A stretch of 32,437 nucleotides of DNA, taken from IMG/VR virus record IMGVR_UViG_3300020190_000228, positions 1 through 32,437 of that record. One strand, written 5' to 3'. This document shows, piece by piece, positions 6,445-32,437 of this stretch. The notes below the pieces were generated by a model, which was given only the letters and a program-made list of their open reading frames with translations, ran no database searches and was not told where the DNA came from. A program made the position numbers and the translations under genes. This stretch comes from a virus. Each line of letters begins with the position of its first letter. The stretch's first letter is position 1.

Positions 6445-7260
6445 ATGAAGCAGACGCCCACCCTCCCCCAGTTGCTCAAGATGCTGGAAGCCGATGGGCG
6501 GAAGCTCGAAGCGCAAGCGATACGGGCCATCCTCCGGGCGTTCAAGGCGACTGACCCGGAAGTGGCGCAGCTCCTCCGGGAGTTGACTGCCGCTCTGATG
6601 CTGCCCTCGCCCACGGCCCGCTTCCAGCAGCGTGAAAGGCTCCTCAGACTGGCCTCTGCGACGATTCCCGATCTCCCCCCGCCCTTCCTGGCCGCTCTGA
6701 CCGATGCCGTGACCCTGGGCGGCAACGTGGGCGCGGGGATGCTGGCCGCGTCGGGTGCTCCGGCTGCCTTGACCATCGCGGCTCCGGCAGTGGAGGCGGC
6801 AGTGGCGGCTATTCCTGCCCGCCTCACGGCCATCTGGGGGGACGCGAGAGCGGACCACGCGGCGCGGGTGGGGCGGGTGATGACTCAGGCGCTGAGTGCG
6901 GGGGGGCGATACCCAGTGCGTGCCCAGCTACAGGCCGCGTTGGGCGTGAGCCGGGCACGGGCGCAACTGTTGGCGACCAATGAGACGCTGAGCGCGTTGG
7001 CAACCGGACAGGCGAGCGTGTTTGACGCTGCCCAGGAGGAGCTAGGGCTAAAACTGGAAGCGGAATGGTTGGCAGCGAATGACGCCCGCACTCGCCCATC
7101 ACATCGCCGGGTGAACCGGGAGAAACGGCCCTACGGGGGGAAGTTCTCTAATGGGCTGACTCGCCCTCATGCGCCAGATGCGCCGCCAGCCGAGACTGTC
7201 AGATGCCGTTGTGTTTTAGCGGTGAGGGCGCTCCCAGACGGAAAAGATGCGGTAGAATAG
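6445..7260 (+). CDS. Minor head (head morphogenesis) protein, SPP1 gp7 / Mu F-like
   Basis: Proteins of this family join the capsid as minor components and help assembly and DNA ejection. ATG6445 follows GGAGGGGGT (6431-6439). The C-terminal ~110 residues show the gp7 domain pattern: RARAQLLATNETLSAL, a helix, EWLAANDARTRPSHRRVN, then the Cys-rich end ETVRCRCVLAV. The N-terminal half is helical and Ala/Leu-rich. The order terminase, portal, gp7-like is the SPP1 one. After this gene the head cluster is interrupted by the cassette at 7330-9279. Confidence 0.8.
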   Translation: MKQTPTLPQLLKMLEADGRKLEAQAIRAILRAFKATDPEVAQLLRELTAALMLPSPTARFQQRERLLRLASATIPDLPPPFLAALTDAVTLGGNVGAGMLAASGAPAALTIAAPAVEAAVAAIPARLTAIWGDARADHAARVGRVMTQALSAGGRYPVRAQLQAALGVSRARAQLLATNETLSALATGQASVFDAAQEELGLKLEAEWLAANDARTRPSHRRVNREKRPYGGKFSNGLTRPHAPDAPPAETVRCRCVLAVRALPDGKDAVE

Positions 7261-7307
7261 GCAAGTCAAAGCCCCCGCGCAGTCGTTACCTGCCGGAGGC
7301 GTGGCGC

Positions 7308-7324
7308 AGCACTTAGGAGGTGCT
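7308..7324 (+). promoter_or_regulatory. Hairpin holding the ribosome binding site of the GIY-YIG gene
   Basis: AGCAC (7308-7312) pairs with GTGCT (7320-7324) around a 7-base loop TTAGGAG. The AGGAGG site at 7315-7320 is in the loop and first stem base. The ATG follows five bases later. The same architecture precedes the next gene at 8036-8054. Confidence 0.6.
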
Positions 7325-7329
7325 AACGC

Positions 7330-7968
7330 ATGGACTATGATGCCACATCCCCCCGTTGCTGGCGCGATATGCGCTCGGTGGCCGACGCCCCAAGCGTGAG
7401 TGGCGTGTACGCCCTTCGCCACAAGCTCAAAGGGCGAATCTATGTAGGGCAATCCAACTGCATAGCTGCCCGCCTTACAAGCCACTATGCCAACCTTCGC
7501 AACCTTGCACCCGGCACTAATCCTGAGATGCTGAAGGACGCCGTTACGGATGGGGCCGACTGCTTTGAGTGGTGCGTGTTAGAGGCGGTAGACGAATCAC
7601 GCATTACGGCGGCTGAGCTTCGCTGGTACACAACCCTTAATGCCAGTGTTTCACGGGGCGGTTATAACCTCGCTGTCCCCCAGGCGACATGGCTACAGGC
7701 GGCATCGCCACGACCCGTTGCTAGTACGCACGCCCTTCAGAATCCCCACGCCTACGCGCTGCCCCCACAGCGCAAGGGGAAGCGGGATGACGGCACCGTG
7801 AGACGGATGGACGTTCCCCGCGAACAGTTGAACGTGCGGATACGCCCCGAACTCAAGCGGGCGGCGGCCAGTCTCGCGGGCTTGCAAGGGCTGACCCTGG
7901 GGGACGTGGTAGAGGCGGCGCTGATCGAGTACATCACTGCCCATCAGTCTGAAGTGGCTGCCGACTAA
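7330..7968 (+). CDS. GIY-YIG nuclease fused to a ribbon-helix-helix domain
   Basis: The N-terminal ~115 residues are a GIY-YIG endonuclease domain: GVY (25-27), YVG (38-40), Arg48, the catalytic-type Glu96 in AAELRWYTTL, and the closing GYN (111-113). All key residues are present, so it is probably an active nicking or cutting enzyme. A basic linker (about 137-160) leads to a C-terminal ribbon-helix-helix DNA-binding domain (about 166-204: LNVRIRPELKRAAASL then LTLGDVVEAALIEYI). GIY-YIG homing enzymes usually carry other DNA-binding modules, so this pairing is unusual. The gene shows less GC-biased codons than its neighbours and lies next to a replication initiator. A free-standing homing endonuclease or a replicon-associated nuclease are both possible. 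Confidence 0.85.
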   Translation: MDYDATSPRCWRDMRSVADAPSVSGVYALRHKLKGRIYVGQSNCIAARLTSHYANLRNLAPGTNPEMLKDAVTDGADCFEWCVLEAVDESRITAAELRWYTTLNASVSRGGYNLAVPQATWLQAASPRPVASTHALQNPHAYALPPQRKGKRDDGTVRRMDVPREQLNVRIRPELKRAAASLAGLQGLTLGDVVEAALIEYITAHQSEVAAD

Positions 7969-8000
7969 AGACCCGGTAGACCCACCCTGTAAAACAGAGC

Positions 8001-8030
8001 GCCCCCCACGCCACGCGACGGCTGGGGGGC
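8001..8030 (+). other. Hairpin between the nuclease and replication initiator genes
   Basis: GCCCCCC (8001-8007) pairs with GGGGGGC (8024-8030), extended inward by A-T and three more pairs with one bulged C. No T-run follows, so it is not a standard intrinsic terminator. ACCCGGTAGAC (7971-7981), shared with the terminase leader at 1999-2009, lies 19 bases upstream. Confidence 0.5.
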
Positions 8031-8035
8031 TGGCA

Positions 8036-8054
8036 AAGCACGTTGGAGGTGCTT
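8036..8054 (+). promoter_or_regulatory. Hairpin holding the ribosome binding site of the replication initiator gene
   Basis: AAGCAC (8036-8041) pairs perfectly with GTGCTT (8049-8054) around a 7-base loop GTTGGAG. GGAGG occupies 8045-8049, so the site is in the loop and stem. The GTG start is the very next base. Folding could limit translation of the initiator, which would fit copy control. Confidence 0.65.
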
Positions 8055-9104
8055 GTGCGTACCCATTGTACCCCTTCCGGGGGGCGGGCACATTTCATCC
8101 GCCACGCCCCGAAGCGGCCCCGCGCCGCAGACGATTACACGCGGGGCGTTCAGATCATGCCCAAACGGGCTGCGCTGGAGTGCGCGAGTATCCAGCTCCA
8201 GCCGCCTGACATGCGGGCGAGCATATCCGCCGATCTGGACAGCCCTGAGAGCTACACCGTCATTCGGGAAATGGACTTCCCGACCCCTCAACTCATCATG
8301 GTCAACCCGGCCAATGGGCACGCGCACGCCATTTGGCAACTGCGGGAGCCGGTCGGGTTTGGCGAGGCCACCCGCCGCACACCCCAGCGGGCCTTTCTCG
8401 ATTTGCAACGGCAGATCACCACCCTGTATGGGGCCGATCTCGGCTATCCGCATTACATGGTGAAGACGCCGGGGCATTCGCGCTGGCACACGGTCGAAAC
8501 GGGCGCGGCGCTCTACACGATGCCCGAACTGTATGAGGCCATGCCTGCGGGCATCCGCAAGCTGGCCGCACAGCAGCGGGCAGAGCGGCAGGCCCAGGGC
8601 GAGGGGCGGCACAGCACGCTCTGGGAGATCGGGCGGCGCTGGGCCTACGGGGAGGCGAGGCGGTTCAAGCGCCGGGGTACACGCCCCCAGTGGTACGCGC
8701 ACGTCCTGGCCGAGTTCAAGGCTCTCAATTCCTTTGCCCTCCCGCTTCCGGCCCGCGAGGTGGAAAGCCTCGCCCGGTACGTGGCCGGGTGGACCTGGGA
8801 CAACGCGGAACGGCTGAACGGCTCCGTACTCGACGGGGAAAAGCGGAGTCTCATTCCCAGTTGGAAGCGGGAAGCCTTGACAGAGGAACAGCGCACGCAA
8901 CGGCGCTCACAGGGGGCACGGTATGCCAACGCCGCACAGCGCAACGCCACCGACGATGCCATCACCGCCGCAATCGCTGAGCTTGCAGGCGAGGGCGTTC
9001 ATGCGCCCTCTGTCACGCTCATTGCCCAGCGTGCGGGAGTTACGCGCCCGACCGTCTACGCCTTCCGCAAGCGTCAGGGGGTACAGGCAGGGGAAGGGAA
9101 CTAG
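8055..9104 (+). CDS. Replication initiator, ColE2-type replicase/PriCT-like
   Basis: GTG8055 is chosen because GGAGG at 8045-8049 fits it; the frame also has TTG8043. The product is 349 residues. Residues ~40-97 match the replicase pattern of ColE2-family Rep proteins: ALECASIQLQPPDMR, ADLD, then NPANGHAHAIWQLREPV (84-100). Residues ~181-247 resemble the primase C-terminal (PriCT-1) helical region (GEGRHSTLWEIGRRWAYGEA to LARYVAGWTW). The end (about 315-342) is a helix-turn-helix (SVTLIAQRAGVTRPTVYAFRKR), as expected for origin binding. Such proteins prime plasmid replication at a nearby origin. Finding one between head genes is odd. The family call rests on motif recognition only. Confidence 0.75.
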   Translation: MRTHCTPSGGRAHFIRHAPKRPRAADDYTRGVQIMPKRAALECASIQLQPPDMRASISADLDSPESYTVIREMDFPTPQLIMVNPANGHAHAIWQLREPVGFGEATRRTPQRAFLDLQRQITTLYGADLGYPHYMVKTPGHSRWHTVETGAALYTMPELYEAMPAGIRKLAAQQRAERQAQGEGRHSTLWEIGRRWAYGEARRFKRRGTRPQWYAHVLAEFKALNSFALPLPAREVESLARYVAGWTWDNAERLNGSVLDGEKRSLIPSWKREALTEEQRTQRRSQGARYANAAQRNATDDAITAAIAELAGEGVHAPSVTLIAQRAGVTRPTVYAFRKRQGVQAGEGN

Positions 9105-9241
9105 CCTCACAGCCTATCCATCCTTTATCCACTGCATTCTTTACACCCCAAACCGTGACCCGCCCTCTCAAATCTGAAGCGCTGACAAGCTGGCCTTGAT
9201 TCCTGCGGAGTCCTGTAAGACCAGCGCCAAACCCTCAGACG
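9105..9241. other. Candidate replication origin downstream of the initiator gene
   Basis: This non-coding stretch is more AT-rich than its surroundings, chiefly 9111-9150. It holds TTATCCACT (9125-9133), one mismatch from the DnaA box TTATCCACA. TATCCA occurs twice 11 bases apart (9115 and 9126). An inverted repeat GCGCTG/CAGCGC lies at 9179-9184 and 9222-9227. ColE2 origins also lie just downstream of their rep gene. The assignment is inference. Confidence 0.45.
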
Positions 9242-9262
9242 CCGCCCCGGTGGGGCGGTTTT
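9242..9262 (+). terminator. Intrinsic terminator before the scaffold gene
   Basis: CCGCCCC (9242-9248) and GGGGCGG (9252-9258) form a perfect stem with loop GGT, followed by four Ts. It ends the replication cassette and stands 17 bases before the scaffold start. Confidence 0.75.
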
Positions 9263-9264
9263 GC

Positions 9265-9279
9265 CATTCCGGAGGAATG
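9265..9279 (+). promoter_or_regulatory. Hairpin holding the ribosome binding site of the scaffold gene
   Basis: CATTCC (9265-9270) pairs with GGAATG (9274-9279) around loop GGA, so GGAGG (9271-9275) is partly in the stem. The gene start at 9280 directly follows. It belongs to the same class as 7308, 8036, 13026 and 26171. Confidence 0.55.
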
Positions 9280-9912
9280 ATGACGTTCAACGCAACCGAA
9301 TACCTTGCCGAACACGGCGGGGACGCCCTGAAAGCCCTTGACGCCCTCGCCGCGAAGCGGGACGAGGAAGGCAAGGACGCCGCCCGCGCTCGCCGTCAGC
9401 GTGACGAGGCCAAATCTGAGCGGGACGCCCTCAGAGATCAACTCACCGACGCTGAGAAACGGGCCGCACCGGACGGGGCAACCGTGCTGACCGGGGACGA
9501 TGCTGCGGCGTGGCAGACGTTCAAGGAGCGCGGCGGCCTGAAAGCCTTTGACGAGGCCGAACAGGTCAAGCAGGAACGGGATGCCCTCAAGCGGCAAGCG
9601 GACCTTACCGAAGCCGCCCAGGCCCTCGGCAAGCCCGCTGACGCCCTCGCGGAGATTCTGGAGGGCAAGACCCTGGAGAAACGCACCGTGAAGGCCCAGG
9701 ACGGCTCTGAGAGCGAGCAGTGGGGCATTCCCCAGGGCGACACGTTCAAGCCGCTGAGCGAACTGAAGTCCATTCAGCTTCTCGGCACCGCCCAGCCCGA
9801 CAAGCCCACGCCCGCGCCGCTGCCCACGGGGCAACGGGGGGGGAATGCCAAGCCCACCGATCCGGTGCAAGCCCTGAACGCCGCCCTCTTCGGCGGCCCC
9901 AAGGAGAACTGA
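9280..9912 (+). CDS. Head scaffolding protein
   Basis: Scaffold proteins guide capsid assembly and are removed before DNA fills the head. ATG9280 is preferred over ATG9277 because of spacing from GGAGG (9271-9275). The 210-residue product is highly charged and helical, with coiled-coil-like stretches (about residues 24-60, KRDEEGKDAARARRQRDEAK; and 88-110). A Pro/Gly-rich region and a short C-terminal helix (DPVQALNAALFG) follow. Such C-terminal helices often bind the capsid protein. Position directly before the decoration and major capsid genes supports the call. No protease domain is seen in it. Confidence 0.75.
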   Translation: MTFNATEYLAEHGGDALKALDALAAKRDEEGKDAARARRQRDEAKSERDALRDQLTDAEKRAAPDGATVLTGDDAAAWQTFKERGGLKAFDEAEQVKQERDALKRQADLTEAAQALGKPADALAEILEGKTLEKRTVKAQDGSESEQWGIPQGDTFKPLSELKSIQLLGTAQPDKPTPAPLPTGQRGGNAKPTDPVQALNAALFGGPKEN

Positions 9913-9913
9913 C

Positions 9914-10291
9914 ATGAAGATGGAAACCCTGACCACCACCGCCACCCGGCCCCGCTGGGCTGGCTCCTACGGCGAGCGGCTGACGCTGCTCAGCGGTGGG
10001 GCCAAGCTCAACGGCGCAAACTTCCCCCTTGTCAACGGCAAGCGCAACGTGCCCAGCGGTACCCTCGTCTCCCGTGACGCAGCGGCGGGTGCCCCCACCT
10101 TCGGCACCTTCAACCCCGCTCACGCCCAGTTCGGGTTCGTGTGGCTGGACGTGACCGACACGGGCGCGACTCCCGACGTGGAGATTTACACCGCTGGCGA
10201 GGTTCGCCTTGATCGCCTGCCCACCGCTCTCACCGCCGAACAGATCACCGCTCTTCGCGGCGCGTTCGTGCTGACCACGGGTGATCTCTGA
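9914..10291 (+). CDS. Head decoration protein
   Basis: ATG9914 follows AAGGAG (9900-9905). The 125-residue product is beta-rich and Gly/Thr-rich, with an N-terminal TTTATRPRW segment, FVWLDVTDTG and VEIYTAGEVRLDRLP. It resembles lambda gpD-type capsid-stabilising proteins, which lie in the same place before the capsid gene. The C-terminus (EQITALRGAFVLTTGDL) is helix-strand. The stop overlaps the capsid gene start as TGATG, so the two are probably translated together. The call comes from size and position more than from a clear motif. Confidence 0.65.
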   Translation: MKMETLTTTATRPRWAGSYGERLTLLSGGAKLNGANFPLVNGKRNVPSGTLVSRDAAAGAPTFGTFNPAHAQFGFVWLDVTDTGATPDVEIYTAGEVRLDRLPTALTAEQITALRGAFVLTTGDL

Positions 10292-11355
10292 TGGATATCC
10301 GCGCACTTGTCGAGTCCCTGATGACCCAGGGCCAGTTCACCAACGCCGCCCGCCTGCCCGGCCTGACGCTGGGCCTGCCCGCCCGCCGCTACGTGGGGGC
10401 GACCGTCCTGCCCGTCCGCAACGTGGAAGAGAACATCTTCCGCGAGAGCGGCGTGACCTACCGCACCGTCATGGCGAACACCGGCACCCGCTACAGCCCC
10501 GTGGTGATTGAGGAGGGCGCGGCGGTCGGGTCCATGCTGGTCGAACTGGGCGAGCTGGACATTGGCAGCGAGTTCAAGGCCAGCGACTATGACGCACTGG
10601 TCAAGCTGCTGGGCCGCGCCGGGGAGATGGGCGCGACGGCGGAACTGCTGAACTGGACCGCCCGCACCCTCGCCCTGCCCATTCAGGAACGTCTGGAAAA
10701 GCAGCGCTGGGAGGCCATTGACGATGCTCAGGTCACGCGCCTGGGGGCCAACGGCTATGAGGAGGTTGTGCCCTACTCCAACCCTGCCGGGCACCGCATC
10801 GCGGGGACGAGCCTCGCAGATCAGGCGGCGGACCCCATCGAGCCGATCATCGCTCAGCAGCAGCTTCTCGCCAGCAAGGGGCAGACGGTGGGACGCATCA
10901 TCACCTCCACCCGCGTGGCCGGGATGATCGCCCGTCACGCGAAGGTGCGGGCCGCGATTGGCGGTGAGGGCGCGACGGTGCCCGTGCGCGTCACCCGCGA
11001 ACTCGTCAACGGCTACCTTCAGGACAACGGCCTGCCCGCCCTGGAGGTCTATGACCTCACCGCCCGCAACCGGGACGGCTCCACCGTGCGGTTCAAGCGG
11101 GAGAACGCCCTCACCCTGATTGCCGACACCGGGCGCACCGCTCAGGTGGACCTGCCCGACGAGCAGCGCATCCTCGCCAACACCCTCGGCTACACCGCCG
11201 TGGGCCGGGCGGCGGGCCAGCAGGACAGCGGCGTGATCGTCAAGGTGAAGTATCAGGACGAGAAGCCCGTGGGCCTGCGCGGGGAAGCCTACGCGACCGC
11301 CGCGCCCGTCATCTTGGACCCGGAAGCTGTGGCCGTGGTCAATTTCCAGCTCTAA
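10291..11355 (+). CDS. Major capsid protein (HK97 fold, lambda gpE-like)
   Basis: This is the main shell subunit. ATG10291 overlaps the decoration gene stop (TGATG) and lacks a clear ribosome site of its own, so coupling is likely. The 354 residues include the typical N-terminal region (LPARRYVGATVLPVRNVEENIF), a long helix (ALPIQERLEKQRWEAIDD), a central domain with GRIITSTRVAGMIARH, and a beta-rich end (GVIVKVKYQDEKPVGLRGEA, then DPEAVAVVNF). Length, order after scaffold and decoration genes, and the closing strand pattern fit lambda gpE-type capsids. No N-terminal delta domain of HK97 size is seen, in line with a separate scaffold. Confidence 0.85.
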   Translation: MDIRALVESLMTQGQFTNAARLPGLTLGLPARRYVGATVLPVRNVEENIFRESGVTYRTVMANTGTRYSPVVIEEGAAVGSMLVELGELDIGSEFKASDYDALVKLLGRAGEMGATAELLNWTARTLALPIQERLEKQRWEAIDDAQVTRLGANGYEEVVPYSNPAGHRIAGTSLADQAADPIEPIIAQQQLLASKGQTVGRIITSTRVAGMIARHAKVRAAIGGEGATVPVRVTRELVNGYLQDNGLPALEVYDLTARNRDGSTVRFKRENALTLIADTGRTAQVDLPDEQRILANTLGYTAVGRAAGQQDSGVIVKVKYQDEKPVGLRGEAYATAAPVILDPEAVAVVNFQL

Positions 11356-12614: not shown

Positions 12615-12982
12615 TGCCTGCCGTGTTGGAAGGCCGCGCCCAGGCAAAGAGCCTGCTAACCCCGCTCGGGGTGCCCGTCCTGTATGCCGACGCGACCCGG
12701 CCCGCTTCCGGGGAGTACATCGTCCTCACGCTGGTGAGTGCCCCGCCTGTGGGCACCTTCGGGGGCCGCGCCTACAACGTGGTCGAACTCCAGATAGACG
12801 TGTGGACGCTTGCCAAATCGGACAGCCGCGCCGGGGTGCTGGGCGAACAGGCGGAAAACGCCCTGGACGCCGCAGGCTGGACCCTTCGCCCCTCCGGGCA
12901 GCCGCTCACCCACGAGGGGCAGCGGGACGCCGGGGGGAACCTCTGGTATCGCTACCGTTTCGACGCTGAACGCGAGTTCTAG
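12614..12982 (+). CDS. Tail terminator / tail completion protein (DUF3168-like)
   Basis: ATG12614 overlaps the previous stop as TGATG; the frame is open from 12566 but that part is a shadow of the upstream gene. The 122-residue product has the expected alpha-beta layout: an N-terminal helix (GRAQAKSLLTPL), strands (PVLYADATRP; EYIVLTLVSAP), then YNVVELQIDVWTLAKSDSRAGVLGEQAENALDAAG, and a final beta segment (WYRYRFDAER). This pattern is typical of the tail terminator family that caps the tail tube. It is the last gene before the tail tube gene. Confidence 0.7.
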   Translation: MPAVLEGRAQAKSLLTPLGVPVLYADATRPASGEYIVLTLVSAPPVGTFGGRAYNVVELQIDVWTLAKSDSRAGVLGEQAENALDAAGWTLRPSGQPLTHEGQRDAGGNLWYRYRFDAEREF

Positions 12983-12998
12983 ACCCTAAGCCCTCTCT

Positions 12999-13020
12999 GC
13001 CCCTGCTGAGTGCGGGGGTT
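12999..13020 (+). terminator. Possible intrinsic terminator before the tail tube gene
   Basis: CCCCTGC (13000-13006) pairs with GCGGGGG (13012-13018, one G-U) around TGAGT, followed by TTCATTCATT. The same stem sequence occurs in the terminator at 26140-26164. The T-run is broken, so strength is uncertain. Confidence 0.5.
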
Positions 13021-13025
13021 CATTC

Positions 13026-13041
13026 ATTCCTTTGGAGGAAT
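13026..13041 (+). promoter_or_regulatory. Hairpin holding the ribosome binding site of the tail tube gene
   Basis: ATTCCT (13026-13031) pairs with AGGAAT (13036-13041) around TTGG, so GGAGG (13034-13038) is half in the loop, half in the stem. ATG13046 follows. It is the same type as the hairpin at 9265-9279. Confidence 0.55.
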
Positions 13042-13045
13042 ACAC

Positions 13046-13498
13046 ATGGCGCAAGCCGAAAAGCTGGTTGTCCGCTCCACCACCACCGTCGAACTCGCCC
13101 GCTACACCGGGGACGCCGTGGGCACCTACCGCACCATTGTCCCCCGTGGCAGCGTCTCGATCTCCGATAGCCGGGGGACTCAGACCTACGCCGATTTCAG
13201 CAGCGCGATGGGCGCTCTCGCCTCCCAGTACGCGGACGGCGACCGCACCGTGAGCGTCAGCTTCAACACCTTCCTCATCCCCTCGGACGCGGCCTACACG
13301 GACGCCTACGACGCCTACGACGACAATGCCAACGTCGCTCTCCGCATCACCTTCAAGGAGCGCGTGGGGGCCACGTCCGTCGTGCGCCACTTCCGGGGCA
13401 GCCTGAACCAGTTCAACGAGACGGGCAATCAGGACGGCGCGGCGGAGGCGAGCATCAGCTTCGTCGCCAGCAGCAAGATTGAGCCTGTGACCCCCTAA
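13046..13498 (+). CDS. Major tail (tube) protein
   Basis: ATG13046 fits GGAGG at 13034-13038; the frame is open from 13010 but that part crosses the hairpin. The 150-residue product is beta-rich (KLVVRSTTTVELARYTG; RTVSVSFNTFLIP; NVALRITFKERVG; AEASISFVASSKIEPV), as expected for the stacked hexameric tube. Size, position between tail terminator and chaperone genes, and its own leader with terminator-like hairpin point to a highly made structural protein. The next gene overlaps its stop (TAATG). Confidence 0.75.
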   Translation: MAQAEKLVVRSTTTVELARYTGDAVGTYRTIVPRGSVSISDSRGTQTYADFSSAMGALASQYADGDRTVSVSFNTFLIPSDAAYTDAYDAYDDNANVALRITFKERVGATSVVRHFRGSLNQFNETGNQDGAAEASISFVASSKIEPVTP

Positions 13499-13731
13499 TG
13501 ATCGTGGCCGCCTTGAATGAGCGCGGCCACGCCCGCCTGCTGTGCCTGGACTGCTCCCCCGCTGAGGGGGGCGTCCGGGTGGGGCGGCTTGTGGCTGAGG
13601 TTGACCTAGAAGCCGCGAGCTATGCGGGCTTCCGGGTCACAGATACCGAAACAAAAGAACCTGTCACGGTGCATCTGCCGGAGCCTCTGGAGGCCGGGAT
13701 GTATCGGGATTTTTACGTAGGAGTTGATTAA
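13498..13731 (+). CDS. Small hypothetical protein between tail tube and chaperone genes (77 aa)
   Basis: ATG13498 overlaps the last base of the tail tube stop, so translation is probably coupled; I see no strong ribosome site. The product is beta-rich (ARLLCLDCSPA; VRVGRLVAEVDLEA; EPVTVHLPEPLEAGMYRDFYVGV) with a CLDC pair. No family is recognised. It may be a minor tail or assembly protein. Confidence 0.6.
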   Translation: MIVAALNERGHARLLCLDCSPAEGGVRVGRLVAEVDLEAASYAGFRVTDTETKEPVTVHLPEPLEAGMYRDFYVGVD

Positions 13732-13732
13732 C

Positions 13733-14092
13733 TTGCCGCTCAAGCTCAAGAACAGTGCCGCCCTCGCCCCCAAAACCTCGGAGACGGTAGAGGCCGTGGG
13801 TATCGTCATTCCCGTACACCCCTACCTGACGACGGCAGAGAAATTGACGTTTGCGAGCTTGGAGGACGACCCCCGCTCGCCCCTCTTTGTGCTGCGGGCG
13901 TTCAGCATCTTTACCCAGTGGCGCTGCGAGCCAGTGGACCATGTGGCGTTTGAAGACCTCGCCGGGGCGAATCTGGAAGAAGACGAGATTGGGGCAATCG
14001 CCCAGGCCGTCTCCCGCCTGTTCGCTGCTACCCGCGAAAATGCACCGGAAGGCGGGCAAGAGGGAAAGCCGGAGAAGAAGACCAAGAGCTAG
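13733..14092 (+). CDS. Tail assembly chaperone, short form (lambda gpG-like)
   Basis: This 119-residue protein is made in the zero frame. TTG13733 fits AGGAG (13719-13723) at nine bases; TTG13724 is too close to it. The sequence is alpha-beta (VGIVIPVHPYLTTAEKLTFA; PLFVLRAFSIFTQWRCEP; NLEEDEIGAIAQAVSRLFAATREN) with a Lys/Gly/Glu-rich tail. A GGGAAAG slippery site at 14062-14068 allows a longer -1 product. In lambda, gpG and gpGT bind the tape measure and recruit tube subunits; the same job is inferred here. Confidence 0.8.
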   Translation: MPLKLKNSAALAPKTSETVEAVGIVIPVHPYLTTAEKLTFASLEDDPRSPLFVLRAFSIFTQWRCEPVDHVAFEDLAGANLEEDEIGAIAQAVSRLFAATRENAPEGGQEGKPEKKTKS

Positions 14093-14445
14093 ACCTCCTG
14101 ACCGTTACGGCCCTGCTGTGCGCCAACTACCCCGCCGTAGACCCTGAACGCATCCCCTACATGCCCTGGCCGATTGTGTCGGGTTTGCTGGCCCGGTTGG
14201 ACATGATTGAGTTCAGGCGGCACGCGCACACCGCGCTCTTGGCGCATGTGGTGGTCGCCTCAATGGGCGGCGCGAAGAATGGCAAGCTCACTGACTATCT
14301 GCTGTCCTTTGCTCAGCTTGAGATGGGCAGCGGGCAGAGCTGGAAGGCAAGCTTCCTCGACAGCGCGGCGGCTGAGACTGATCTGCGGCTCGCGGTGCGG
14401 TGCGGCTACGTTTCGCAGCACGTGTTTGACTGTTTGACGACCTAG
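13733..14445 (+). CDS. Tail assembly chaperone, -1 frameshift long form (lambda gpGT-like)
   Basis: After -1 slippage at G-GGA-AAG (14062-14068), reading continues from 14068 in the other frame to the stop at 14443-14445. This gives a 237-residue fusion: 112 residues of the short form plus 125 new ones. The new part begins AGEEDQELDLLTVTALL and continues helical (YMPWPIVSGLLARLDMIEF; HTALLAHVVVASMGG). The downstream part has no good ribosome site or convincing start of its own before ATG14161, and protein-like sequence extends upstream of that ATG to the slip site. That supports the fusion. Confidence 0.8.
14062..14068 (+). promoter_or_regulatory. Programmed -1 ribosomal frameshift site GGGAAAG
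   Basis: The heptamer lies in frame as G-GGA-AAG relative to the short chaperone and is identical to the slippery site of lambda G/T. The zero frame ends 22 bases later (TAG 14090-14092). The -1 frame is open across it to 14445. Confidence 0.85.
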
Positions 14446-15076: not shown

Positions 15077-18000
15077 ATGACGATGGCCGATAGCGGGGTG
15101 CTGGACACCCTGGTAGTCAAGCTCCGGGCGGAACTCGACACCCTGCGGAACAACCTCAAGGAAGCCCAGCAGGAAACCGCGAGAGCGGGCGAGGCGGCGG
15201 GGCAAGCCTTCGGGCGGTCCTTTGGGGGTGCGAGTGGCGGCGGGATTGGCGGCTCGGTAGACGCCCAGAAAGGCAAGCTCACCAATGACGCCCAGCAATC
15301 GGGCACGGCGGCGGGCCGCGCCTTCGGTGCCGCTTTCCGCGTGCAGATCAGCGAGGCCGCGCAGGAATCAAGCAAGGTGCTTGCCGGGGTACTCGCCACG
15401 GTGGGCGCGGCGGCGGTCACGGCGGGCACGGGCCTCGTCAAGCTGGCGGGGGAAGCGGAGCAGGCGCAGGTCGCCTTTACCACCCTGCTGGGAAGTGCAG
15501 AGAAAGCGCAGGCGTTCCTCGCTGAGCTGCGGGACTTCGCCGCCCGCACGCCCTTTGAGATGGCCGGGCTACAGGATTCCTCCCGGAAGCTGCTGGCCTT
15601 CGGATTCACCGCCCAGCAGATCATCCCCATGCTCACGGCGGTGGGGGACGCGGTAGGCAGCCTGGGCGGGAGCGCCGAGGTCATGGACCGCGTGGTGTAC
15701 GCGCTGGGGCAGATGCAGGCCAAAGGCAAAGTTTCCGCTGAGGAAATGATGCAATTGGCCGAGACGGGCATCCCCGTGTGGAAGATGCTGGCCGACGAAA
15801 TCGGCGTCAGCATCCCCGAGGCCATGAAGATGGCCGAGAAGGGCGCGATCTCGGCGGGTCAGGCCATCCCCGCGATTCTGGAAGGAATGCAGAAGAAGTT
15901 CGGCGGAGGCATGGCCGAACAATCGCAGACCCTGCTGGGCATGTGGTCCACCACGATGGACAACCTCAAAACCGCTGGTGTACAGGCGGGCGAGGCCATC
16001 ACGGAGGCGCTGAACCTCAAGGAAGTCCTGGGCGGCGTCAATGACGCGCTGGGGCGACTCCCCGCCATGCTGGACGGGCTGGACCTCAAGCAGTGGGCGC
16101 AGGACAACGCCACGGCCCTCACCGCCCTCGGCGGGGCCATCACTGCCGCCCTCATCCCCGCTGCCGTGGCAGGCGCAACCGCCCTCGCGGGCTTTATTGC
16201 GCCCCTCCTTCCCTTCATGGCGGCAGGCGCGGCCATCGCGCTCACCCTCCGGGCAATGGGCGTGGGCATGGACGATGTGCGCCGGGGCTTCGAGCAGGCG
16301 AAACAGGCCCTCGCCCCCTTTGTGGAGGCCATGAGCGTGGCAGGCCGGGAGGCCCAGACCCGCCTTACTCCCATCCTCCGCACGGTGGGAGAGGGGGCGC
16401 GGGCAGGCTTTGAGGCGGTGCGGGACGTGGTGGAGCGGGTGTTCATGCCCGCCCTTGCCAGCCTCGCCCCCTACGCCCGGCAGATTGGGGCGCAACTGGG
16501 GCCGCTGTTCAGCAACATGGCCGACGCCATCCGCGCCGCCTTTGAACTGGCACGGGACGCCGTGCAAACCATCTTCATTCCGGCTTTTGAGAAGGTGTGG
16601 CCCGTCATTCAGCCCATCCTTGCCACACTGCTCAAGGGGATTGAGGCGACCCTGGCCCTGATCTCCGGCGCATGGCGCACTGTGACCCAGGTACTCACCG
16701 GGGACTGGGCGGGCGCATGGCAGACGATTGTGGACAGCGTGGCCGGGTTCGGCGTGCGAATCGAGGCCGCTCTAGACGCGCTCGCGCCCAAGCTGGGGGA
16801 GGCCGGGAAGAAGCTCGGCACCTACATCTGGAACGGGCTACAGGGCAGCTTTGACGGGTTGCAAGCGCTCTTTCTGGATGCCATCGCCAACGCGATTGAG
16901 GCGCTGAAGGAGCAGTTGCCCGGTTTCTTCCAGGGCATTGCTGGGAGCCTTGTGGGAGGGGCACGGGCCGGGGCAGCCCGTAATCGGGCGGAATCGCAGA
17001 CCAGTATCAACACTGCCGCCAACGTGGACTTCACCCCCAGTCCCCCACGGGGCACTCCCACGAATGGTTTCACGGCCAGCAAGGGGCAGGCTATCCGCGC
17101 CGCCGCGCAACTGCTGGGGATTGACCCCAATGACCTCGCCGCCGTCATCTCCTTTGAGACGGGCGGGACGTTCCGGCAGGACATTCGCAACCCGACGAGC
17201 AGCGCCACAGGACTGATTCAGTTCATGGAAGCGACCGCCAAGCAGCTCGGTACATCCACCGCTGAGCTTGCCCGGATGAGCTTTGAAGAGCAGATGAAGT
17301 ATGTGGTGAAGTACCTCCAGGGGCGGGGCATCACCAACGGCAGCACGCTGGGGGACATTTACAGTGCTGTGGCCGGATGGGGTTATCGTCGGGGCACAGA
17401 AGCCTACCGGCTCAATCAGGTATGGGACGCCAATAAGGACGGCTTCATCGCCAAAGGCGAGGCAGTCACGGCGGGACCGTTTCAGGCGCATCGCCGCAAC
17501 TACTTCCCCGATCAGGGGGGGACGCTGGCTTACGCCAACGCCAGGATTCCCTACCCGACCAATGCCCCGAGTGCAACCAACACGCCCGCCCAGACGGGTT
17601 ACAACTATCAGGCCCTCTTCAACAGCGCCAACGCCGCCGCGCCCACCGCTGAGGAGCAGAAAAAGTACAACCTCACCCTTGCCGACTGGAACAAGCACAA
17701 GGCGCAGGCCATCAAGCTGGAGCAGTTGCACGCAGAAGCCATCGCTAAAGGCGACGATGCCGCCCGCCTGAGCATTGAAGCCCGCATGAGGGCATGGGCC
17801 AAAGAGGACAAGGCCAAGCTCGCCTCCCTCCAGTTTGCCCGTGAGGTCTACGCCCGTGAGCGGGCAGAAGCCGCCAAAAACGATCAACCCGCCCGCACTC
17901 AGGCCGAAATCCGCGCCCAGGAACAGCTAGAAAAAGCCCTCCGCAACACCTCCCGCGCCCGCCTGGAACAGCTCGCAGGCGGCACCGTGGGAGAGAACGG

Positions 18001-28564: not shown

Positions 28565-29027
28565 GCCGCTGCTCGCCCTCCCGCCCGGTCTGCGGCCCGC
28601 CCGCTGGCACGGCTTTCACACGGGACTGCTGATCGTCGCCCTGATCGTGATGGGCCTGAGCCTCTTTTTCCCCGCCAATTCCGCAGCGGCGGCGGGGCAG
28701 ATCATCCTCGACGAGGACAACGCCCGGTACATGCGGGCGGGTATGGCGCTGTTCGCCCTTTGGGTGGCCTTCGGGATTCGCGGGCAGCCGTGGTGGCATG
28801 TGGTGATCTGCATGCTGATCGCTTTTTTTGCGCGGGGGCAGATGGTCCGGGCCGAATACACGGCGGAGGTGACGGGCGTGCCGTTGTCTCTCCTCTGGGC
28901 GAATCTCGCGTGCCTGTTCTATCTGTTCGTACTGGCATGGCGGCCCTCGGTCCACGAGCGACTGGAGGAGCGGGACCGCCAACTGGCCGAGGCGCAGGCC
29001 GAGATTCGCCGGATGAGGGGGCCGTGA
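28542..29027 (+). CDS. Four-pass membrane protein, possible lysis accessory
   Basis: ATG28542 follows GGAGGGGAGGG (28529-28539). The 161 residues have about four hydrophobic segments (TGLLIVALIVMGLSLFF at ~24-40; MALFALWVAFGI at ~64-76; WWHVVICMLIAFF at ~81-93; LSLLWANLACLFYLFVLAW at ~111-130). A short charged helix ends it (ERLEERDRQLAEAQAEIRR). The mix of membrane segments and C-terminal coiled helix could suit a holin partner or anti-holin; this is inference from place. The stop overlaps the next ATG (TGATG). Confidence 0.55.
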   Translation: MTVKRKARPLLALPPGLRPARWHGFHTGLLIVALIVMGLSLFFPANSAAAAGQIILDEDNARYMRAGMALFALWVAFGIRGQPWWHVVICMLIAFFARGQMVRAEYTAEVTGVPLSLLWANLACLFYLFVLAWRPSVHERLEERDRQLAEAQAEIRRMRGP

Positions 29028-29866
29028 TGCTGCACGGTGCCTACCACGTCGCTTGGGAGAATCCCGGCACGACAGCGGAGAAAATCGCCGCCCAGATGCG
29101 CGACCTCCGCACGGTCGCCGGGGCGGGCATGAACCTGTTTCACACCAGTCATCTGGAAGACATTGCCGCTACCCGCCGCCTGCTGAACACGGCCCGGACG
29201 CTCGGGGTGCTGGTGATTCTGGAGGATGTCAACCCGAGCGAGCGGGCAGCCTTTCTGGGGCATCCGGCGTTGCTGGCCCTCAATGTGGCCGATGACGCCA
29301 ACCGCCTCCAGACGCCACAGACGCTGGCCGCAGAAACCCAGGTGCCCGGTGCCCGGTACATGTCCATCGGGGTGACGGATGACGGGGCGGAATGGACCTA
29401 CGGGCACTCGGAGGTGATCGGCCTCCAGACCTACCCCTACCCGTATGAGCAACTGGCCTACTACTGGCCCAAACTTATCCAAGCGCGGGAACTGGCCGAC
29501 AAGCACGGGCAGCGGCTCTACGCCAACCTGCAAGCCCACCACAACAACCACCGCGACAAGGAGACGGGCGAACTGGCGTACCCGAAAGCCGAGCAAATCC
29601 GCGCCCTCGCCTGGCTCTCTGCTGCTGCGGGCGTAGACGGCGTGCTGTGGTTCGCCCAGGTGTGGAAGGGGGGCCGGATGCCTCCCGCCGTGTGGCAGGC
29701 CGTGCGGGCCGTGACGCTAGAGATGCGGCGCGTGACGGTCGGGCGGCCTGCGGTGACGCTGGACGGGGAGCGGCTGACCGCCGTGTGGCCGGGTGGGGGG
29801 CGCGTGGTGATTGATCTGACCGAAAACCGCGTGCTGAGCGTGGAAGCGCGATTGGAGAACAAATGA
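29027..29866 (+). CDS. TIM-barrel glycoside hydrolase-like protein
   Basis: ATG29027 overlaps the previous stop; GTG29024 is in frame too. The 279 residues show alternating strands and helices of a TIM barrel: AGAGMNLFHTSH, LGVLVILEDVNP (Glu66), LLALNVADDANR, RYMSIGVTDD, VIGLQTYPYPYEQL, RLYANLQAHHN and GVLWFAQVWKGG. A small beta domain follows from about 225. Strand ends carry acidic and aromatic residues as in sugar-cutting enzymes, but I cannot name the family or the catalytic pair. It precedes the M15 endolysin with a four-base overlap, so a second cell-wall or surface-polymer hydrolase in the lysis region is a fair inference. It has no signal peptide. Confidence 0.55.
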   Translation: MLHGAYHVAWENPGTTAEKIAAQMRDLRTVAGAGMNLFHTSHLEDIAATRRLLNTARTLGVLVILEDVNPSERAAFLGHPALLALNVADDANRLQTPQTLAAETQVPGARYMSIGVTDDGAEWTYGHSEVIGLQTYPYPYEQLAYYWPKLIQARELADKHGQRLYANLQAHHNNHRDKETGELAYPKAEQIRALAWLSAAAGVDGVLWFAQVWKGGRMPPAVWQAVRAVTLEMRRVTVGRPAVTLDGERLTAVWPGGGRVVIDLTENRVLSVEARLENK

Positions 29867-31355: not shown

Positions 31356-31736
31356 CTATTCAGAATCTGAGAGGGCTGCCTCGACAGCCAGGGCGAGGGC
31401 ATGGGCGGGGGTGTCGGCGTAGTGATCGTCCGCCTCGTCCCCCGTGACGTAGACCTGGGCACCGTAGTTGCTGGGCAGCTTGCCCCGGTAGGACCACCAG
31501 CGCCAGCCCCGCGCCTCGCACTCCTCGCGCAGGGCCATCTCCAGCGCCCACGCCTGAGTCCACTGGGGGTTGTCGCCGCCCCACCACACATCCCGCCAGC
31601 CGTGGTAGTCCACCTCTACGGCCACCAGCCACACATCAGCGGGGTCGGTATCGTTCCAGTCCACTCGCACCCGCTTCGGCAGCAGCTCGGCCAGCCGCGT
31701 GAGGGTGGTCGGGAGGGTGGGGGCGGTCATTCCCAT
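31356..31736 (-). CDS. Hypothetical protein, Trp-rich (126 aa)
   Basis: ATG at 31736 (reading left) follows GAGG (about 31743-31746); a second ATG lies two codons in. The product is alpha-beta with many Trp (RVRVDWNDTDPADVWLVAVEV, GWRDVWWGG, EECEARGWRWWSYRG). An Ala-rich helix ends it (HALALAVEAAL). No family is recognised. The fourth palindrome copy forms its last codons. It ends the leftward gene set and faces the late region. Confidence 0.6.
   Translation of the reverse strand: MGMTAPTLPTTLTRLAELLPKRVRVDWNDTDPADVWLVAVEVDYHGWRDVWWGGDNPQWTQAWALEMALREECEARGWRWWSYRGKLPSNYGAQVYVTGDEADDHYADTPAHALALAVEAALSDSE
31359..31370. repeat. Copy 4 of the TTCAGAATCTGAA palindrome, imperfect
   Basis: TTCAGAATCTGA matches 12 of 13 bases of the motif at 1156. 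It lies at the 3' end of the leftward gene ending at 31356. Confidence 0.55.
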
Positions 31737-32017
31737 GCCAACACCTCCTCTGGCACGCTCTCAGCCCAGTACGCCGAGTCCTCGTCAGCATAGGACGGGG
31801 AGGGGGCGTAGCCCGGCTCAGGCTCCGGCGCAATCGCCACACCGATGCACCACAGGCGGTTCTCAGCGTCCACGGTGCCGAGGTGGTTGCGGTATACCCG
31901 GTCACACTCGGCCTGCGCCTCCTCGCGGGTCGCGTGGGTGCTCAGCACCTCGTCGTAGTCGTACCCGGACAGGCTGGCATCCGTGGTCCAGCTCGTGCAG
32001 ACGACCCAACGGCTCAC
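31727..32017 (-). CDS. Hypothetical protein (96 aa)
   Basis: GTG at 32017 follows a G-rich site (GGGGG, about 32024-32028) and overlaps the upstream gene stop by four bases. The product is acidic: strand (RWVVCTSWTTDAS), helix (ATREEAQAECDRVYRNH), strand (RLWCIGVAIAP), then a Pro/Glu/Tyr-rich end. No family is recognised. It overlaps the next leftward gene by ten bases. Confidence 0.6.
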   Translation of the reverse strand: MSRWVVCTSWTTDASLSGYDYDEVLSTHATREEAQAECDRVYRNHLGTVDAENRLWCIGVAIAPEPEPGYAPSPSYADEDSAYWAESVPEEVLAWE

Positions 32018-32280
32018 TGGGAGCCCCCTTCCAGCAGGATCACGTCGCCCTCAATCACCGGGTCATAGCTGAAGTCGGTCAGGTACAGCCCTAGCCATTG
32101 CGTGAACTCGCAGAAGGTGGCTTCCACATACCCTCTGCTGTCGCGCTTGGGGTACTTCTGATCGCCCGGAATCCGCAGGGCAAGCTTCAGCCTGCGGCAA
32201 TCAGCTTGAATCAACCGCCAGCCCCGGTCGGTCGGCTTGAACTTGAGCATGGTGGTCATGCCGATACGTGCCCCCTTCAT
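32014..32280 (-). CDS. Hypothetical protein (88 aa)
   Basis: ATG at 32280 follows GGTGGG and overlaps the upstream stop as ATGA; the frame is open further but only as shadow. The product is basic at first (MKGARIGMTTMLKFKPTDRG), with a helix (RLIQADCRRLKLAL) and a strand-rich end (WLGLYLTDFSY; DVILLEGG). No family is recognised. It is part of the leftward run of small genes. Confidence 0.6.
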   Translation of the reverse strand: MKGARIGMTTMLKFKPTDRGWRLIQADCRRLKLALRIPGDQKYPKRDSRGYVEATFCEFTQWLGLYLTDFSYDPVIEGDVILLEGGSQ

Positions 32281-32437
32281 CCCACCATCCCCTGCGGCTC
32301 CGGCATCGGGGCGTACAGCGCCCCCAGCAGCATCCACGCGAGGGCCAGCGCCAGCCCGATCAACAGGGCCGCATAGGGGTAGGCGGTGGCGAGGCGCAGG
32401 GCGTACAGGGCAGCATGTCGCCAGAGCAGGCAGCGGG
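32277..32437 (-). CDS. Small membrane protein, truncated by the window edge
   Basis: The frame is open from the right edge to the TGA at 32277-32279. The visible 52 residues include one long hydrophobic segment (ALLIGLALALAWMLLGALY) and a short polar end. It overlaps the next leftward gene as ATGA, which supports that it is real. The start lies outside the window. Confidence 0.5.
   Translation of the reverse strand, partial: RCLLWRHAALYALRLATAYPYAALLIGLALALAWMLLGALYAPMPEPQGMVG

Follow-up and report, generated by a model that had tools for sequence, protein, structure and literature searches.

Organization of the locus

The stretch of DNA analyzed here (the window) is an entire IMG/VR record, 32,437 bases long, in which no terminal repeats are present. 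By its gene content it appears to be the late region of a siphophage, comprising terminase, portal, MuF, scaffold, capsid (Phage_cap_E), tape measure, collagen-like fibre and endolysin genes, and has an average GC content of 66.4%. The window starts 1.9 kb upstream of the terminase gene, and the early region lies outside the record. Searches of the window against Rfam and for tRNAs gave no matches. Three short ORFs lie beyond the lysis genes on the minus strand (31356-32337, GC3 0.74-0.87). The host is likely Deinococcus, because the product of one tail-region gene (28994-29863) and the C-terminus of the nuclease described below have matches in Deinococcus only among plasmid records.

The genes for a GIY-YIG nuclease and a ColE2-type replication initiator (Rep) lie between the genes of the MuF-type minor head protein and the scaffold-like protein (Table 1). 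This order, which is known from one record only, had been pointed out in a sequence-only reading of the window, and Pfam matches bear out both genes at this place.

Table 1. Features at and around the interval between the MuF and scaffold-like genes
Feature	Position	Strand	Remark
MuF-type minor head protein gene, left border of the slot	6445..7260	+	PF04233, E 1e-11
Leader hairpin of the GIY-YIG gene, GCG(C)AGCAC-loop-GTGCT(AA)CGC, Shine-Dalgarno sequence in loop and stem	7304..7329	+	
GIY-YIG domain (residues 24-115) fused to partition-type ribbon-helix-helix (RHH) domain (residues 114-207)	7330..7968	+	
Leader hairpin of rep, GCA(A)AGCAC-loop-GTGCT(TG)TGC, overlapping the GTG start	8033..8058	+	
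ColE2-type Rep with AEP primase domain, PriCT-like region and putative C-terminal HTH	8055..9104	+	
AT-richer non-coding stretch past rep, candidate place of an origin	9105..9210	+	composition
Pre-scaffold leader with hairpin 9241-9259, outside the cassette	9211..9279	+	resembles the gap in relatives
Scaffold-like gene, right border of the slot	9280..9912	+	
Capsid gene, Phage_cap_E	10291-11355		downstream of the scaffold-like ORF

A nuclease joined to a partition-type DNA-binding domain

The N-terminal part of the nuclease matched PF01541 (E 4e-6) and keeps the GVY25, YVG38, Arg, Glu and Asn motifs, in accordance with the earlier assignment as a GIY-YIG nuclease, and the matches of this part are phage homing endonucleases. 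Residues 114-207 matched small RHH proteins of Deinococcus plasmids only, at 62-65% identity. The protein in AB2017081 (plasmid unnamed3) is 65% identical over the C-terminal 94 residues and shows no differences in the strand segment QLNVRIRPELKRAAA, and that in pDrdII is 59% identical over 59 residues. In both plasmids the RHH gene sits directly behind a ParA gene. Because residues 114-207 match an RHH protein encoded behind ParA in a Deinococcus plasmid, the product is, as judged by homology, chimeric, combining a nuclease of the homing type with a DNA-binding domain of the kind found in plasmid partition. The likeness to the ParA-partner proteins covers the C-terminal 94 residues, whereas the window protein has the nuclease in place of their N-terminal stretch and is encoded with no ParA nearby. 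No ParA was found in the window or in the relatives described below, and the RHH domain therefore does not belong to a ParA-based partition pair there. GIY-YIG proteins are also encoded in two other Deinococcus phage-like plasmids, and their C-termini are unlike that of the window nuclease. The 33.6-kb AB2017081 plasmid record (NZ_CP140101.1) itself looks like a head-to-tail dimer, with genes repeated about 16.8 kb apart.

A Rep with intact primase motifs

Rep matched PF03090 (Replicase) with an E value of 8e-23, and of 2.4e-25 in the genome-level search. When it was aligned with ten plasmid Reps, every invariant residue was kept, including D60, D62, H91, D128 and K137-H141, and the first four of these fit the motifs hhhDhD, sxH and hD defined for AEPs (PMC5862659), as expected of a ColE2-type Rep of the Replicase/AEP class. 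The ColE2 Rep has been grouped with AEPs having PriCT-1 and HTH domains that unwind DNA (PMC5862659). In the window protein the PriCT_1 match was weak and under the cut-off (E 0.11), although the region aligns with that of the plasmid Reps, and the HTH match (TetR_N, E 3e-5) was barely over it. Thus, the identification as a ColE2-like initiator is upheld by the PF03090 match and the intact primase motifs, and of the two families suggested for a profile search, Replicase was recovered and PriCT matched below the cut-off. The window Rep shares with ColE2-type Reps (PF03090; ColE2 Rep-like AEP family) the apparent order of primase, PriCT-like region and HTH, all motif residues and a similar length; it differs from them in identity (33% or less), in its long branch, in its location within a phage head cluster and in having no ColE2-consensus origin behind the gene.

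A tblastn search with Rep matched 2517 plasmid records, with the best identity at 29-33%, and none of 50,697 phage records. This difference argues for a plasmid parentage of the gene. A phage-only family was ruled out, since neither PHROG nor INPHARED gave a match. In the tree, the window Rep formed a long end branch (2.64) and was unplaced, and near relatives of Rep or of the GIY-YIG protein were not found in viral and genome collections. GC3 of rep is 0.78, similar to that of the phage, and that of the GIY-YIG gene is lower (0.68). Structure predictions from the single sequences were poor (pLDDT 41-43) and were not used.

The two genes have matching leaders

A 33-nt repeat (D1) occurs at 7292-7324 and 8021-8053, immediately ahead of both start codons, and each leader can adopt a hairpin of the same two-part design, whose loop holds the ribosome-binding site. 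The folding energies by themselves are unexceptional (-11.8 kcal/mol, z -1.9 for the GIY-YIG gene and -11.3 kcal/mol, z -0.8 for rep). Among 465 pairs of leaders in the window, these two were the most similar (74%; runner-up 60%, mean 41%, sd 6), which agrees with the earlier remark that the cassette has leader elements of its own, and argues for shared regulation of the two genes, possibly through RNA or a DNA-binding protein. For the RHH domain, the window leaders aligned with the region upstream of AB2017081 parA no better than random 40-mers of the window did; AGCAC half-sites, which look alike by eye, were dropped as its binding site for this reason.

The leaders also bear on whether the block is an assembly chimera or a functionless, dead insertion. 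Its occurrence in one record, its unusual place and the low GC3 of the GIY-YIG gene could be taken that way. However, both ORFs are intact with their motif residues kept, the ribosome sites are good, the leaders match and the GC3 of rep is like that of the phage, and we regard this explanation as very improbable.

The region behind rep

The non-coding region 9105-9279 is indeed AT-richer, with 57.7% GC compared with the window average. When the sequence after rep was compared with that of plasmids, the ColE2 origin consensus was absent from the window; it was present after rep in two plasmids, and several other relatives also do not have it. The cassette had been supposed to end in a terminator. 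This is not upheld: the hairpin at 9241-9259 also precedes the scaffold gene in the relatives, and therefore does not mark the end of the cassette. A terminator scan gave nothing exceeding chance. A related gap element, in which TAAGnCC has a GC hairpin and then a run of T behind it, stands before the scaffold gene in all three phages (window 9211-9279; L023 14151-14281; L022 14111-14245 and 16380-16518), twice in one of them.

A variable slot in the head gene cluster

The window was compared with the two closest phages found, which were reached via the portal: G001 (47,257 bp), whose portal is 65% identical, and G002 (47,657 bp), in which several tail genes are 91-93% identical. MuF residues 1-261 are 75-76% identical to both, and residues 93-198 of the scaffold-like product are 83% identical to G002. 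Between them, DNA homology to the relatives is lost at 7211-7228 and comes back at 9604-9628. Neither relative has the cassette genes. The slot contains one basic protein gene in G002, and two of the G002 type together with two reverse-strand genes in G001. The latter are at 15236-15811 and 15880-16299 of L022 (minus strand), and at the end of the first product there is a weak match to an Arc-like (RHH) domain. It had been assumed that head genes normally run on directly here, whereas the relatives have one or more other genes in the gap. Because the relatives carry different genes there and DNA homology breaks, the MuF-scaffold interval is, at the level of sequence, a variable slot. The head cluster is mosaic outside the cassette as well, and the scaffold N-terminus and the capsid differ from those of the relatives. 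Elsewhere in G002 (12883-14190 in reversed coordinates, minus strand), a 435-aa ORF resembles a TnpB-type protein by eye and lies near ThyX-like and dCTP-deaminase-like ORFs.

Such a slot could be filled by homing, in which cleavage by the GIY-YIG enzyme close to the junction of MuF and scaffold, in relatives that have no cassette, would be followed by repair that copies the whole block, with Rep as a passenger. The GIY-YIG matches are to homing endonucleases, the sharp loss of homology coincides with the ends of the block, and homing genes occur at exchange boundaries in phages (PMC10448857). On the other hand, both relatives hold other genes at the site and neither offers an empty one, the DNA-binding domain comes from a plasmid protein and not from a module binding phage sites, and no phage found has a second copy. 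On this balance a homing cassette seems unlikely. That the nuclease moves the cassette, as had been proposed, is possible, but its putatively plasmid-partition-derived DNA-binding part points at least equally to a plasmid target.

Rep and the replication of the phage

Upstream of the terminase gene, G001 encodes an O-like/DnaD-like initiator, ERF and a serine recombinase, and G002 encodes a DnaB helicase, a Toprim primase and a Rad52-type annealing protein. The relatives thus have ordinary replication modules separate from the slot, and one has a serine integrase. In the comparison with related phages that the sequence-only reading had called for, the genes of 7261-9279 are absent from both closest relatives, which keep replication modules elsewhere. 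Of its interpretation, the capture of a plasmid-type Rep stands, since the protein is of plasmid type with intact primase motifs, is absent from the relatives and is encoded beside a nuclease gene. The other part, replication of the phage by this Rep, is conceivable, but the relatives have modules of their own upstream of the terminase gene, in a region outside the window record, and no ColE2-consensus origin follows rep. For Rep, an accessory role in initiation is more probable than the main one.

The same data bear on a phage-plasmid replicon, the main interpretation of the sequence-only reading. Rep and an origin at 9105-9210 would here maintain the prophage in the form of a circular plasmid, with a part in this maintenance for the nuclease/RHH protein. 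Rep is intact, the AT-richer stretch directly behind its gene is where ColE2 origins are positioned in plasmids, and Deinococcus phage-plasmid-like records exist. However, the consensus origin is missing, ParA was found neither in the window, which has Rep and begins 1.9 kb upstream of the terminase gene, nor in the relatives, which use other replication modules, in one case with an integrase, and a PF03090 Rep is absent from the Deinococcus phage-plasmid-like records searched. A replicon of this kind is doubtful here. Circular Deinococcus plasmids with tape-measure and other phage genes, which are likely phage-plasmids by gene content, are pDAETH-4 (L038), KNUC1210 plasmid unnamed6 (L006/L008/L009) and QL22 plasmid unnamed8 (L033); the first two also have ParA genes.

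ColE2-type Reps in other viral records

Of the 13 viral records in which a scan with the Rep alignment found ColE2-type Reps, 9 also have a gene for an HK97 capsid protein. Several measure 8-12 kb and carry Rep next to genes for capsid, protease, portal and terminase, and two of the small records read begin with an integrase. Seven records of 8-12 kb (L045, L046, L048, L049, L051, L053 and L054) resemble capsid-encoding satellites. Tail genes are present in two Rep-bearing records (L043 and L050), and a 55-kb record (L052) has a ColE2-type Rep together with an O-like initiator. Such Reps are thus carried both by full-size phages and by small elements that encode a capsid, and finding one in a phage or satellite is in itself nothing new, as far as sequence comparison goes. 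New here are the location, with MuF on one side and scaffold on the other, and the partner that Rep has there.

The small satellite-like elements of IMG/VR share with the window a Rep gene adjoining capsid genes, so that the segment might have been captured from a capsid-encoding satellite, in which this neighborhood is usual. The number of HK97 capsids and the 8-12 kb records with Rep beside head genes speak for such a source. Those elements differ from the window in their size, HK97 capsid, frequent integrase and separate Rep group, and no tail genes were seen in them. The window Rep falls outside that group, its capsid is of another family, and the window belongs to a full tail-bearing phage with tape measure, tail and lysis genes. 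A satellite origin is accordingly improbable.

A proposed plasmid-derived cargo and its possible use

We tentatively prefer the explanation that 7229-9210 is co-regulated, plasmid-derived cargo acquired into the MuF-scaffold slot of a probable Deinococcus siphophage, with a nuclease that may hit rival plasmids and a probably accessory Rep. The RHH half would bring the nuclease to the binding sites of that protein on Deinococcus plasmids or phage-plasmids, and cutting at these sites would damage the rival replicons, perhaps to the benefit of the phage. Rep would serve to prime DNA synthesis at its cognate origin, which may lie unrecognized in the block or be located elsewhere.

That the chimera is led to sites of ParA-RHH plasmids is proposed by analogy with Odn of vibriophage ICP1, a GIY-YIG-superfamily nuclease whose DNA-binding domain resembles the RepA of a satellite and which cuts the origin of that satellite (PMC8263062), and with the domain swapping between phage homing nucleases and satellites (PMC10448857). 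Both Odn and the window protein are phage-encoded nucleases of the GIY-YIG superfamily whose DNA-binding domain is related to a protein from the replicon of a rival element, a homology that rests here on the RHH identity. They differ in that Odn has a RepA_N domain, whereas the window nuclease has a partition-partner RHH domain, is linked to a Rep gene and has a predicted activity. A more specific form, in which the stolen ParA-partner domain would aim the nuclease at partition (centromere/operator) sites and the module, with Rep, would attack or displace resident plasmids or phage-plasmids, is conceivable but rather unlikely. Counting against an anti-plasmid role is that Rep is no obvious fit to a nuclease weapon, and homing would be an equally good role for the nuclease.

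Should the chimera act in the proposed way, nucleases directed at partition sites would be among the weapons in the conflict of phages with plasmids. The principle of Odn would reach beyond the origins of satellites to the segregation of plasmids, and this in a group of hosts that has received little study. Parts of plasmid replication and segregation would then be reused as cargo within phage head clusters.
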